Part shown: piece after piece, positions 27,101-49,375 of the stretch
How positions within the stretch are numbered: the stretch's first letter is position 1
Layout of the letters: each line of letters starts with the position of its first letter
Assembly (NCBI GenBank): GCA_030683605.1
Contig: JAUXPL010000026.1
Span: 1 to 64,000, forward strand
Direction: 5' to 3'
DNA from: Candidatus Altimarinota bacterium
Lineage (GTDB): Bacteria; Patescibacteriota; Gracilibacteria; BD1-5; UBA6164
DNA: 64,000 bases
Notes under the pieces: model-generated
Seen by the model: the letters and a program-made list of their open reading frames with translations, nothing else
Told to the model about the DNA's origin: nothing
Databases searched by the model: none
Position numbers and translations under genes: made by a program

Positions 27101-27715
27101 ATGTATAATAAATTAGAAGTAATTATAACAATTCTTGAATCACAAATAGAAAAGCTGAAACAAGAATTAGAAAAACTACAACAAGAATTGATGAAAAACA
27201 AAAGAAAAAGTATTGATAATCAAGAAGCTATATTAAATAAATTGGTTCCTGATAAAAAAATAAGCACTGTTAAGGTGCTAAAAATATTTTTTCCTAAGTT
27301 GCTTGTAGAAACTAAAAAAAAATTATGGTTTATTAATGTAGCTAATATAACTTTGGAAAAACTTAGAAATGACCTAAGAATATTAGTTAATGAGAATATC
27401 TATTATAATAATTATATGCATTTTGAATTAAAAGAATGGCATAATTTTGATAATAAGATAAAACAATTAGAGGAATTGATAAATAATAACAAGCAAGAAA
27501 CTAAAATAGTTGAAAATAGTCTAATATCAGCTAAAAAGTTACTAGAAATAGAAAAAAACAAAATAAACAAATATAAAACAGTTAAAATAAAGGAGAGACT
27601 TAATGATTTAATAGAACCAAATAATAATCCTATAGATGTATTTCCATTATGGAATGATTTATTCAAGAATACTCAATTATCAAGAGAAATCTTAGAAATT
27701 GAACACGTAATGTAA
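27101..27715 (+). CDS. Glycine-free coiled-coil protein
   Basis: 204 residues containing no glycine at all, and therefore no TGA and no GGN codon. Residues 10-45 and 115-170 are predicted coiled coil by eye (IEKLKQELEKLQQELMKN, and KQLEELINNNKQETKIVEN). The middle has a short globular segment with LWFINVANI. Unlike most genes here it has a clear GGAG Shine-Dalgarno and a TTGACA -35. No family is recognised. It ends NTQLSREILEIEHVM. A shared bidirectional hairpin follows. It may be phage-derived or imported, which is inference from codon and signal differences. Confidence 0.75.
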   Translation: MYNKLEVIITILESQIEKLKQELEKLQQELMKNKRKSIDNQEAILNKLVPDKKISTVKVLKIFFPKLLVETKKKLWFINVANITLEKLRNDLRILVNENIYYNNYMHFELKEWHNFDNKIKQLEELINNNKQETKIVENSLISAKKLLEIEKNKINKYKTVKIKERLNDLIEPNNNPIDVFPLWNDLFKNTQLSREILEIEHVM

Positions 27716-44009: not shown

Positions 44010-45842
<1,833 letters not shown>

Positions 45843-46116
45843 TTAATATATGTTTAATGATAAAAATCAAAAAAAGAACTTGGCATAATAATATTGCAAG
45901 CTCTTTTTCTATATATTAAATAGATGTGAACTTCCAAACAAAACAATTATAATGTAATTAATTTATTACGCTACCAGATATAATTACAATAAAAATATTG
46001 TAAATATATCAACTAGTTTCATTAACCCAAATTAATTAAATCCCATTATATTGAGTCATTTGAAACTTCTTATTTTTTCGACACGGTGATTATATAAAAT
46101 TATTTTTAAAATGCAA
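45843..46116 (-). promoter_or_regulatory. Promoter and long structured leader of deaD with a terminator before the ATG
   Basis: Minus strand: TTGCAT at 46116-46111, 16-base spacer, TATAAT at 46094-46089, giving a start near 46082. The leader then contains AGTTTCA/TGAAACT, the perfect hairpin TTACAATA-TTTT-TATTGTAA, and finally AGAGCTTG...CAAGTTCT plus T7 (45908-45869), an intrinsic terminator about 26 bases before the start codon. This suggests attenuation or antitermination control of deaD. It could instead be only the end of a short separate transcript. It fills the gap 45843-46180 with the purC terminator. Confidence 0.55.
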
Positions 46117-46131
46117 ATCTTTTTTGTCAAG

Positions 46132-46166
46132 AAAAAAAGATAATACCTAAAATACAGTATTACCTT
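46132..46166 (-). terminator. Terminator of purC
   Basis: AGGTAATAC and GTATTATCT (one G-U pair) followed by T7 on the minus strand, 15 bases after the purC stop. Confidence 0.85.
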
Positions 46167-46180
46167 TTCATTTTTTGCCT

Positions 46181-47143
46181 TTAAGCAAGTCTTTTCAATG
46201 TTTTGTATACATCAATATATCCTTTCAAGATTCTATCTTGTATTTCTTTTGGCACTTCAACATGAAGCTTTTGTCCTTTTTCTAATGTTTTAGCTTGCTC
46301 TTTCCAACCAGCTTGTTCACCATAGTTTCTCAGGATTTGTTTATCCATAGATATGTAATCATTTTTTGTGAAATCTTCCAGATCAATATAACGGCTACTT
46401 TCAGGAGTCAATACTTCATCACCTAGTACCCAATTACCATTACTGTTATAAAAAACTTCAAATTTTGTGTCCACCACTACGATACCATTAATTAAACATT
46501 CCTCATAGAATTGATTGAAAAGTCTTAATAAATTCTCAACGATATCAAAAAAGTCGATGTTTACTCTCAACCCACTCATTGGTATATCTTTCTCACCCTT
46601 TGTAGTGGGAGTAAAAATAACAGATTGAAATTTATCCCATTCATTCATACCTTCCGGTAAAAACAACTCGTAAGGATCAAGACCTTGTTTGTAAATCTTG
46701 AACAAACTACCAGTTAAATATTTACGGAAAATCAATTCCATACCTACAGTTTCATTGTTATGCAAAGTATAAACAGGTTTGCATAATTCAAACAACTGAG
46801 AACGTTCTTTTACAGACTCCGGCAAATTTACAGGTAATTTTTTACGAGCTGTTTTAATGCCCATGGATTCAGCGAAATCAAAACCCAAATCAGAAATCTG
46901 AGATTGAACAATCCCCTTACCAACTATTTGCAAGTCGAGAGGAATATCAAACACAGAAGTACGATCACTACGAACCAAAAGTACATGTGGAACATCACCA
47001 GCAACAAAGTACAAATCAGCATTTTTGCCAATATAGAAAAGATTGTAACCCAATTCTTCCAGTTCTGGCAAGCCATTTTCGCTTGTCAATACTTTAGACT
47101 CAGGCCATAAACCTAATTTTACAGCATCAGAAATATTTTGCAT
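46181..47143 (-). CDS. purC: SAICAR synthetase (phosphoribosylaminoimidazole-succinocarboxamide synthase)
   Basis: 320 residues from the ATG at 47143, which follows a clear AAGGAG Shine-Dalgarno; an upstream in-frame ATG at 47161 would add six residues that span that signal. Catalyses ATP-dependent joining of aspartate to CAIR in de novo purine synthesis. Motifs: LVRSDRTSVFD, ELIFRKYLTGSLFKIYK, VVDTKFEVF, GDEVLTPESSRYID, SMDKQILRNY. It holds 22 glycines, all GGN; not one TGA. Neighbouring genes of similar size hold many TGA. G+C is also higher than around. This points to recent import from a standard-code bacterium. No other purine-synthesis gene is adjacent; guaB is 15 kb away. Confidence 0.93.
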   Translation of the reverse strand: MQNISDAVKLGLWPESKVLTSENGLPELEELGYNLFYIGKNADLYFVAGDVPHVLLVRSDRTSVFDIPLDLQIVGKGIVQSQISDLGFDFAESMGIKTARKKLPVNLPESVKERSQLFELCKPVYTLHNNETVGMELIFRKYLTGSLFKIYKQGLDPYELFLPEGMNEWDKFQSVIFTPTTKGEKDIPMSGLRVNIDFFDIVENLLRLFNQFYEECLINGIVVVDTKFEVFYNSNGNWVLGDEVLTPESSRYIDLEDFTKNDYISMDKQILRNYGEQAGWKEQAKTLEKGQKLHVEVPKEIQDRILKGYIDVYKTLKRLA

Positions 47144-47221
47144 ATTATTCTCCTTTTTCAAAATTAATGCACCAGTAATATAAGTATTTTTTATAAATAG
47201 TCAATATATGTATTAATCAAT

Positions 47222-47256
47222 AAAATAATCCTAGCATTGCTAAGATTATTTTATAT
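47222..47256 (-). terminator. Terminator of the large coiled-coil gene
   Basis: AATAATCTTAGC-AAT-GCTAGGATTATT followed by TTTATTG on the minus strand; it overlaps the last codons of the gene 47246-49375. Confidence 0.75.
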
Positions 47257-49375
47257 CTTTTAATTTATCTTTTATATTTCTTATATCTATCATAGTTTTA
47301 GTTACTTTTTCCAACCATCTATATACTTTATCAGAATGTTCATAATTTACTACTAGATAATCTTTTGAAAACATAAATTCATTTGCTCACTTATATTTAT
47401 AATGCACTTTTAGTCTAGCAGGAAAATCTACTTCACTACTATTCTTATAGTTTATCTCAAAATAATACTCAGATCAATTATATAGTTTTGTATTAGTTAA
47501 TTGTATTTTTGTAAGAGAAAGAGAATTATATGTATCTATATTTTCTCACTTTATTTCCACTTTATTATTCTGTAGATTTACTAATTCTTGCTCTAATATT
47601 TTTAGTTTTCATGACAATAATTTTATTTCTTTATCGTATTTATAATTCTTTGAATCAGTATAAAGTGAATCTTTAAATAATAGTAATTTCAAATTATAAT
47701 CGTTTTCTAATTCCCTCAATTTTACAGACCGCATTATCTTATCAGATTGTTTTAATGATAAAGAAATTTTTTTCTTATATAATTTTATATTATCATTTAG
47801 TATTTTTAAATCATTTTTAGAATTATAAAATTTATCTTTATTATTTATATCATTAATATTAGATAATATTAATGATATTTCATTATCTAACTGTAAATTT
47901 TTATTAAATAATTCTTTACTTATTCTCTTTAATTCCTTAATTGATTTTTCTAAATCTTCTTTATTTATTTGTAACTCTCTTATAAATCATTTTCATATTA
48001 AATCATATCACTCATATGGTAATAAAAATTTTCATTTAGATTTCAAAAATTCTAATAATTTCTTCTCATTTGTAATTATAAATTCATGATTTTGTTTTAT
48101 TCTTTGATTATTTAATTCCTTTTCTATTTCTAGTTTTTCTAACTTATCTAATAATTTATCTTTTGTAATATTAGTGTATCAAACTATATTATTAACAGTT
48201 TGGTTTAATGAAACATTATCATTGATTTCATAATTTTCTATATAATCTACATTATTTATATTTTCAAATGTATTTATATCTATTACTCAACAAAATTTAT
48301 TTTTATAAACAATCCATTTACTATCTTTTAATGCTTTTATCTTTGAGATAGGATCCAAATTATTTTTGAATTCAAAATTAAAATCTGACTTAACATGATT
48401 AAAAAATAATAAGTACTCTGCTATATTTCAAAAAGTCAGTTCAAATCTAGCTCCAGAGTTAAAGCTCAGATTCAATATAGGAGCTATTTCTTCATCTTTT
48501 GGGAAATTTATTTCAATATTATCCAATTCTCATAAATTACTTGATTTTGTTAGGTAGAAATTTGTAACTCTTGAGTTATTTATTTCTTCTTTTATATATC
48601 ATTTTCAAATCAATAATTTTTTATCAATTGATTTTTTGTGAAATTCTCCTGTTTTTTTATCTTGAAAAGTATATAATTCGCTATTTGATGTAAATATTTT
48701 ACTTATTTGATTATCAGAATTAACAAAATTCAAATATTCATTAGTATTAATTTCCTTCAATCAAGTTTCTCAATATCTAAATTTGTAGATATTATTTTTA
48801 TTAGATAATATATAAATATTGTTATCCATTCTAAAAACATTCTTTGAAATTATTTCATTTCAATATTCATCTTTTAAAAAATATTTTTTATTTCTATCAC
48901 TATTATAGTCTAATAAATAGTAAAAATTTTGTCAAAATGCTAAATTGTATTTTCCAAATGAGATTGTAGATGTTATATTTTCTTCTATAATATTTTCAAA
49001 TTCATAATTCGCATTACAAGTATCACTTATTTGTTCAAATGATCTATTGAACATATAACTTTTTCAGTTTATTGATTTAACTATTATAGATGCTACAGGA
49101 TTTCATTCTAATAATTGAATATCATCCATATTTGTTATTTTTATTCACTTAGAATCTCTGATTTCTATTAATTCTTTTTGTCAGTTTTCAATTTTGAACA
49201 ATTTTCCATTTTCTAGTATATACTCAATATTATCGAAGTATATAGTTTTTGATTTAAATTCTTTTTTATCTAAAATATTGCTAATTTTAGACCCAAAAAA
49301 ATGAGTATAGGATTTTACTAGCTTTTCTTTTAATGAATTTATGATACCTCAATTATGTTTATTTAGCTTAAACAT
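47246..49375 (-). CDS. Large protein with C-terminal coiled coil, function unknown
   Basis: 709 residues, no signal peptide or TM. Residues 1-440 are beta-rich by eye, with many short strands such as TIYFDNIEYILENGKLFKI and YRFRYGETGLKEINT-like turns. Residues 445-640 form long coiled coil (DKLLDKLEKLEIEKELNN, and KRISKELFNKNLQLDNEIS). The last 70 residues are a compact end with VDFPARLKVHYKYKGANEF. I recognise no family. The repeated strand-turn units could be a propeller; this is a guess. It lies alone on the minus strand, with purC downstream and a family D repeat upstream. Numerous TGA codons show it is native to this genome. Confidence 0.75.

Follow-up and report, generated by a model that had tools for sequence, protein, structure and literature searches.

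In genetic code 25 the codon UGA is decoded as glycine (PMC4032931). The stretch of 64,000 nucleotides analysed here (the window) comes from a code-25 genome of the Gracilibacteria and carries a gene, purC, that spells each of its glycines in the standard way. A first, sequence-only reading of the window took this gene as an import from a standard-code donor. The locus thus raises the question whether purC is a newcomer that has had too little time to take up TGA, or a long-standing resident from which TGA is kept out.

The purC gene and its protein

Encoded on the minus strand, purC starts with ATG at 47143 and stops with TAA at 46181-46183 (Table 1). Its glycine codons are GGT (15), GGC (3), GGA (2) and GGG (2), without any TGA. 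The other tallied ORFs of the window contain 795 TGA and 290 GGN glycines (1085 in total), i.e. 73% TGA, and at this rate the binomial chance of no TGA among the 22 glycines of purC is 2.5e-13. Only one other tallied ORF of the window lacks TGA (27101-27715), and glycine is absent from it altogether. With a GC of 0.337 and a GC3 of 0.265, purC stands above the other window ORFs (roughly 0.16-0.31 and 0.08-0.18), and it is preceded by AAGGAG, a motif that is rare in the genome. The uniform GGN glycines, the strong AAGGAG and the raised G+C content described by the sequence-only reading are hereby confirmed. Even with Gly left out, purC ranks within the bottom 1.3% of the genome by codon usage; 6 of its 11 Arg codons are CGT.

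PurC matches the Pfam family SAICAR_synt (PF01259) over its full length (129.8 bits, profile positions 2-232 of 233) and retains the motifs FRKYLTGS, DTKFEVF, DEVLTPESSR and MDKQILR, in line with constraint on conserved motifs. The family match to known SAICAR synthases (PF01259; PRK13961 / TIGR00081; yeast Ade1 1A48/1OBG; PDB 3R9R/6YVQ) extends over the whole length, but PurC of the window carries an N-terminal GLWP...GYNLFYIGKNADLY segment, and the yeast GKVRD stretch reads GKNAD. NCBIfam scores (113-145 bits) remain below every purC equivalog cut-off (190-251 bits), namely 144.8 versus 251 for PRK13961 and 113 versus 189.9 for TIGR00081. We claim family membership, not equivalog status, and regard the protein as a putative divergent subfamily of SAICAR synthases. 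The equivalog models are probably too narrow, because Arcobacteraceae with this PurC type, which is the sole PurC in each of four genomes checked, have no other PurC.

Profile searches for PurE (PF00731) and PurB (PF00206) gave no match in the genome of the window (G000) or in the two congeners that carry purC (G070 and G069). PurC is an orphan without PurE and PurB, which, for these two steps, bears out the earlier remark on a lone enzyme of de novo purine synthesis. With neither partner matched, these genomes encode none of the usual enzymes that would consume SAICAR; service as a pathway fragment shared with another cell would be the most likely use of the enzyme. For one gracilibacterium, the majority of purine and pyrimidine genes has been reported (PMC6851277). 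The single-contig code-25 genome G065 encodes a PurC-PurE fusion resembling animal PAICS, likewise TGA-free (L228 8833-10149; 21 Gly).

Relatives of PurC and age of the gene in the genus

A scan of 84,980 species with PurC returned the two congeners first (84% for G070, 72% for G069), then Arcobacteraceae/Campylobacterales at 53-58% and, besides these, two weak Clostridium fragments; in alignment, one Arcobacter PurC reaches 59%. In 200 genomes sampled from Campylobacterota, the phylum of the Arcobacteraceae, there were seven strong matches (528-577 bits) and one of 125 bits, the remainder being weak and mostly to proteins of ~240 aa. The viral scan gave no match, and plasmid and phage collections gave PurC matches at 26-34% identity only, none of them close.

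In a tree of 59 PurC sequences the proteins of G000, G070 and G069 form a clade (support 99), in which G000 and G070 join first and G069 follows. PurC of G006, a member of another family of the order, joins them with an SH-aLRT of 87 (47% identity), and its ORF combines 8 TGA with 18 GGN codons. This code-25 clade is sister to the Arcobacteraceae (81), with no nesting, and the joint branch of both groups (support 100) measures 3.39 changes per column. Arcobacteraceae PurC are 53-59% identical to that of the window over the whole length; their genes are poorer in GC (about 0.30) than the purC of the window and often use AGA for Arg. Other Patescibacteria PurC lie far from it in the tree. PurC of any kind occurs in 17/77 genomes of the order, in several unrelated forms, some TGA-rich and some TGA-free.

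The nearest PurC relatives outside the lineage's own phylum are what an import of any age would leave, and the AAGGAG leader, the atypical codons and the Arcobacteraceae as closest standard-code relatives support a foreign origin of purC. Two observations had been named in advance as speaking against import, namely grouping with other code-25 sequences and TGA in close orthologues. The former is what the tree gives. As to the latter, purC of G070 and G069 has none; the more distant G006 has eight. The phylogeny that had been proposed for finding the donor yields the Arcobacteraceae as nearest standard-code kin; being sister rather than nesting group, they do not appear as the source, and the tree fixes neither donor nor direction. 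A TGA-free gene could also travel outward from a code-25 host. One sample, Sandtown_C, yielded both the G069 bin and two abundant Aliarcobacter bins (L002, L005 and L007 records), a hint of co-occurrence.

In G000, G070 and G069 purC adjoins an orthologous DEAD-box helicase gene and thus occupies the same chromosomal slot, with TGA counts of 0/22, 0/22 and 0/23. A fourth congener, G068, has a different PurC. The stretch from promoter to ATG can be aligned with both G070 and G069; promoter scans of the AT-rich upstream region performed no better than on shuffles. Downstream of purC no terminator was reported by the scanner, for which the hairpin listed in Table 1 is too A+T-rich, and G069 has a different hairpin at this place. 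The leader of the helicase gene may be a regulatory RNA leader; Rfam gave no match in the window, this leader included. PADLOC returned nothing for purC. In G067 the helicase match starts 329 bases into the contig, so this congener could not serve as an example of an empty site. The DEAD-box helicase beside PurC of G006 was considered as an inherited adjacency and dropped, because it resembles other DEAD-box proteins of G000 to a similar degree (40% vs 36%).

Table 1. Features of the purC locus (window positions)
Feature	Position	Strand	Remarks
purC, SAICAR synthase, 320 aa	46181..47143	minus	22 GGN / 0 TGA glycine codons
AAGGAG, Shine-Dalgarno-like, 6 nt before ATG	47150..47155	minus	also before purC of G070 and G069 and before the different PurC of G068
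sigma-70-like promoter TTGACT-16-TATATT	47177..47204	minus	supported by conservation
hairpin GGTAATAC..GTATTAT then T run, terminator-like by eye	46131..46164	minus	sequence inspection
leader of downstream DEAD-box helicase gene, ~280 nt	45843..46130	minus	anchor of the purC slot, with strong conservation in G070 and G069 and partial conservation in G068
DEAD-box helicase, 38 GGN / 22 TGA	44010..45842	minus	orthologue located after purC in G070 and G069 and, in G068, after the different PurC
709-aa ORF, family not assigned, upstream of purC, 23 TGA	47246..49375	minus	orthologue upstream of purC in G070, 70% identity

The identities of PurC (84 and 72%) are within the range of the flanking orthologues (mostly 70-96 and 65-94%), and its tree order agrees with their pattern of identity. 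At aligned sites of the orthologues flanking purC, TGA stands opposite GGT in 14% (G070) and 30% (G069) of cases, and opposite GGA in 30% and 46%. Retention of GGN was counted at sites that are GGN in G000 and require glycine in all three species, in the genes flanking purC or pyrEF and in purC, PyrE and PyrF, these three having been chosen as TGA-free in G000 with no regard to their state in the other species. GGN is kept in all three species at 98/159 flank sites, compared to 20/20 in purC, 9/9 in PyrE and 13/13 in PyrF. For purC the probability is 6e-5 on pooled sites, 0.0024 with the four slowest flank genes and 0.019 on resampling whole genes; for the three genes together it is 1.5e-9 pooled and 4.7e-5 resampled. 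At the same time 6/16 conserved Arg sites of the three show a synonymous first-position change (Fisher p = 2e-4), and 43-62% of the fourfold sites of purC differ between species. Lack of time is therefore an unlikely reason for the missing TGA. Of the import from a standard-code donor proposed by the sequence-only reading, the foreign style stands (0 TGA, AAGGAG, atypical codons, Arcobacteraceae kin), but the recency does not, given a TGA-free gene in the same slot of two congeners.

A set of TGA-free genes

In a genome sample of 843 kb including the window (about 55% of 1.54 Mb), TGA is missing from 15 of the 561 ORFs that have 8 or more Gly, and the search for such genes as a transfer signature, suggested beforehand, found them sharing Shine-Dalgarno motifs and foreign codons with purC. 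The named set comprises PurC, a PyrE-like protein, PyrF, a DHODH-like (PyrD-like) protein, IlvC, ThrC, SpeE, AlaX, a HaeIII-type restriction enzyme and a PEP-CTERM-like secreted protein; one TGA-free ORF we take, from its sequence only, to be ribosomal L7/L12. A Shine-Dalgarno match of at least five bases precedes 6/14 TGA-free ORFs versus 5/524 others (p = 4e-8), the latter being those sampled ORFs in which Gly occurs 8 times or more and the TGA share exceeds 25%. The codon fit of purC, pyrE, pyrF, speE and ilvC is in the lowest 1.5% of the genome, and worse under the highly expressed pattern. GC content was rejected as an explanation of the set: TGA share declines as gene GC rises (median 0.46 at GC 0.31-0.34), but thrC (GC 0.27) and the pyrD-like gene (GC 0.29) are TGA-free as well.

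Five genes of the set were followed in the congeners, purC, pyrE, pyrF and thrC in three species and ilvC in two. They sit in the same slots, each beside orthologous neighbours, and together have 1 TGA in 328 glycine codons, the sole TGA being in thrC of G070. A search of five congeners for the 16S rRNA, which would show the anti-Shine-Dalgarno sequence, detected none. PyrE and PyrF would convert orotate to UMP, an ordinary salvage use, and TGA-free pyrE-pyrF pairs with TGA-bearing neighbours were also seen in other genera of the family (L231 5656-7042 in G057; L232 2605-4011 in G058). IlvC is of the plant-like long type (575 bits to spinach 1QMG); at two loci (L179 12333-13820; L225 9587-11074) this long ketol-acid reductoisomerase is TGA-free with 38 and 47 glycines. 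The thrC gene keeps its slot in three species, 55-68% identical between highly similar flanks (L188 2161-3618; L225 15460-16917; L248 1495-2958). The HaeIII-type restriction endonuclease gene (L143 18351-19337) is TGA-free and scores 330 bits in Pfam.

The literature collection searched contained no description of a resident, TGA-free and Shine-Dalgarno-led gene set. Gracilibacteria phages that are TGA-free and compatible with code 11 (PMC10746230) are a parallel, in that a code-25 host contains genes legible in either code; those cases are phages, whereas the set described here consists of single chromosomal enzyme genes in conserved slots. Foreign composition as a mark of transfer, and its amelioration, are treated in PMC12455944, which cites Lawrence and Ochman 1997. 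Measured against the amelioration described in that text, the expected shift to the host's TGA glycine codon failed in the set, although other synonymous sites changed meanwhile.

What keeps TGA out of purC

The reading that we favour, tentatively and with a belief just short of even, is that purC is a long-resident gene of standard-code origin, inherited in one slot, in which TGA is selected against and whose enzyme is active. PurC would be an orphan SAICAR synthase subfamily common to Arcobacteraceae and Gracilibacteria. Together with its own promoter and Shine-Dalgarno leader, its gene would have come into the genus from a standard-code lineage, earlier than the common ancestor of G000, G070 and G069, and the slot would have been inherited since. 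In the resident foreign-style enzyme genes (PurC, PyrE, PyrF, ThrC, IlvC and others) glycines seem not to drift to TGA like those of their neighbours, and selection keeping TGA out is the leading reading. The CAIR on which the enzyme may act would be supplied by a partner or by the cell's surroundings. For purC itself inheritance is favoured because its tree is concordant and its leader homologous; the cause of the codon constraint is what we infer. A point against selection is that the retention in purC alone is moderately significant (0.019) when gene-to-gene variation is allowed for, and we know of no reason why a code-25 cell should avoid TGA in a metabolic gene.

It is possible, but rather unlikely, that the slot alone was inherited and the coding sequence was repeatedly overwritten by standard-code homologues, in which TGA is a stop. 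Replacement in place does seem to happen, as follows from the discordance of thrC (56% between G000 and G070 with flanks at 98% and 91%; tree against species order, AU p = 0.018) and from G068, where a different TGA-free, AAGGAG-led PurC (286 aa; L229 916-1776, G068:C36) lies directly upstream of the orthologous helicase. Moreover, pyrF and pyrE are 52-59% identical between G000 and G069 amid flanks of 71-90%, and the foreign codon usage was not lost. The non-Gly codons of purC keep their foreign character in each of the three species, a state at least as compatible with divergence within a standard-code genome. Against replacement, the identities of purC, pyrE and pyrF track the species order, and promoter and leader of purC are homologous among the three species. 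Without shared flanks, sequences of 70-80% identity recombine inefficiently, and one scan of 84,980 species contained no standard-code PurC closer than 59%.

Plain recent import, leaving too little time for TGA, was how the sequence-only reading explained the missing codon, and it would suit the AAGGAG, the high GC3 and the Arcobacteraceae kin of purC. We consider it improbable and largely refuted. A recent import should be absent from close relatives or placed elsewhere, but purC lies TGA-free in the same slot at 72-84% identity in two congeners, and over the same time the flanks exchanged GGN and TGA and the set genes changed Arg first positions. Slightly less probable still, the genus may keep bilingual genes, that is genes for nucleotide and amino-acid synthesis enzymes selected to be legible under code 25 as well as under the standard code, with a Shine-Dalgarno leader and without TGA; exchange with standard-code partner cells, or expression in them, would be one possible cause.

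High expression, with TGA as a poor codon avoided by highly expressed genes, is very unlikely to account for purC. Translation genes are indeed TGA-poor (L7/L12 with 0 TGA and 11 GGN, EF-Ts 2/16, L10 2/13, L1 3/20), but most still hold some TGA, and they keep a low GC3 (0.07-0.13) and no CGT, as opposed to a GC3 of 0.27 and CGT at 6/11 Arg in purC. The non-Gly codons of purC fit the highly expressed (ribosomal) model worse than the genome average (-1.150 vs -1.014 per codon), and expression-driven codon choice was rejected for this gene, its codon usage being unlike that of ribosomal genes. In L7/L12 and other translation proteins the scarcity of TGA has a different cause, since the rest of their codons conform to the highly expressed pattern. 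An assembly or binning artefact that joined the purC of another organism to the contig, as its foreign look and the congener bin from a sample with abundant Aliarcobacter might suggest, is refuted for practical purposes by three separate assemblies, each of which has its own purC sequence in this context, flanked by TGA-rich neighbours to either side.

Recoding is often described as an obstacle to the exchange of genes. The code-25 genome analysed here contains enzyme genes of standard-code style that have remained so while several species diverged. The absence of TGA together with a Shine-Dalgarno motif provides a two-part signature for finding such genes, and a missing recoded codon is an unsafe guide for dating transfer in a recoded genome. 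It thereby becomes testable whether foreign genes of long residence take up a reassigned codon, and what excludes it where they do not.
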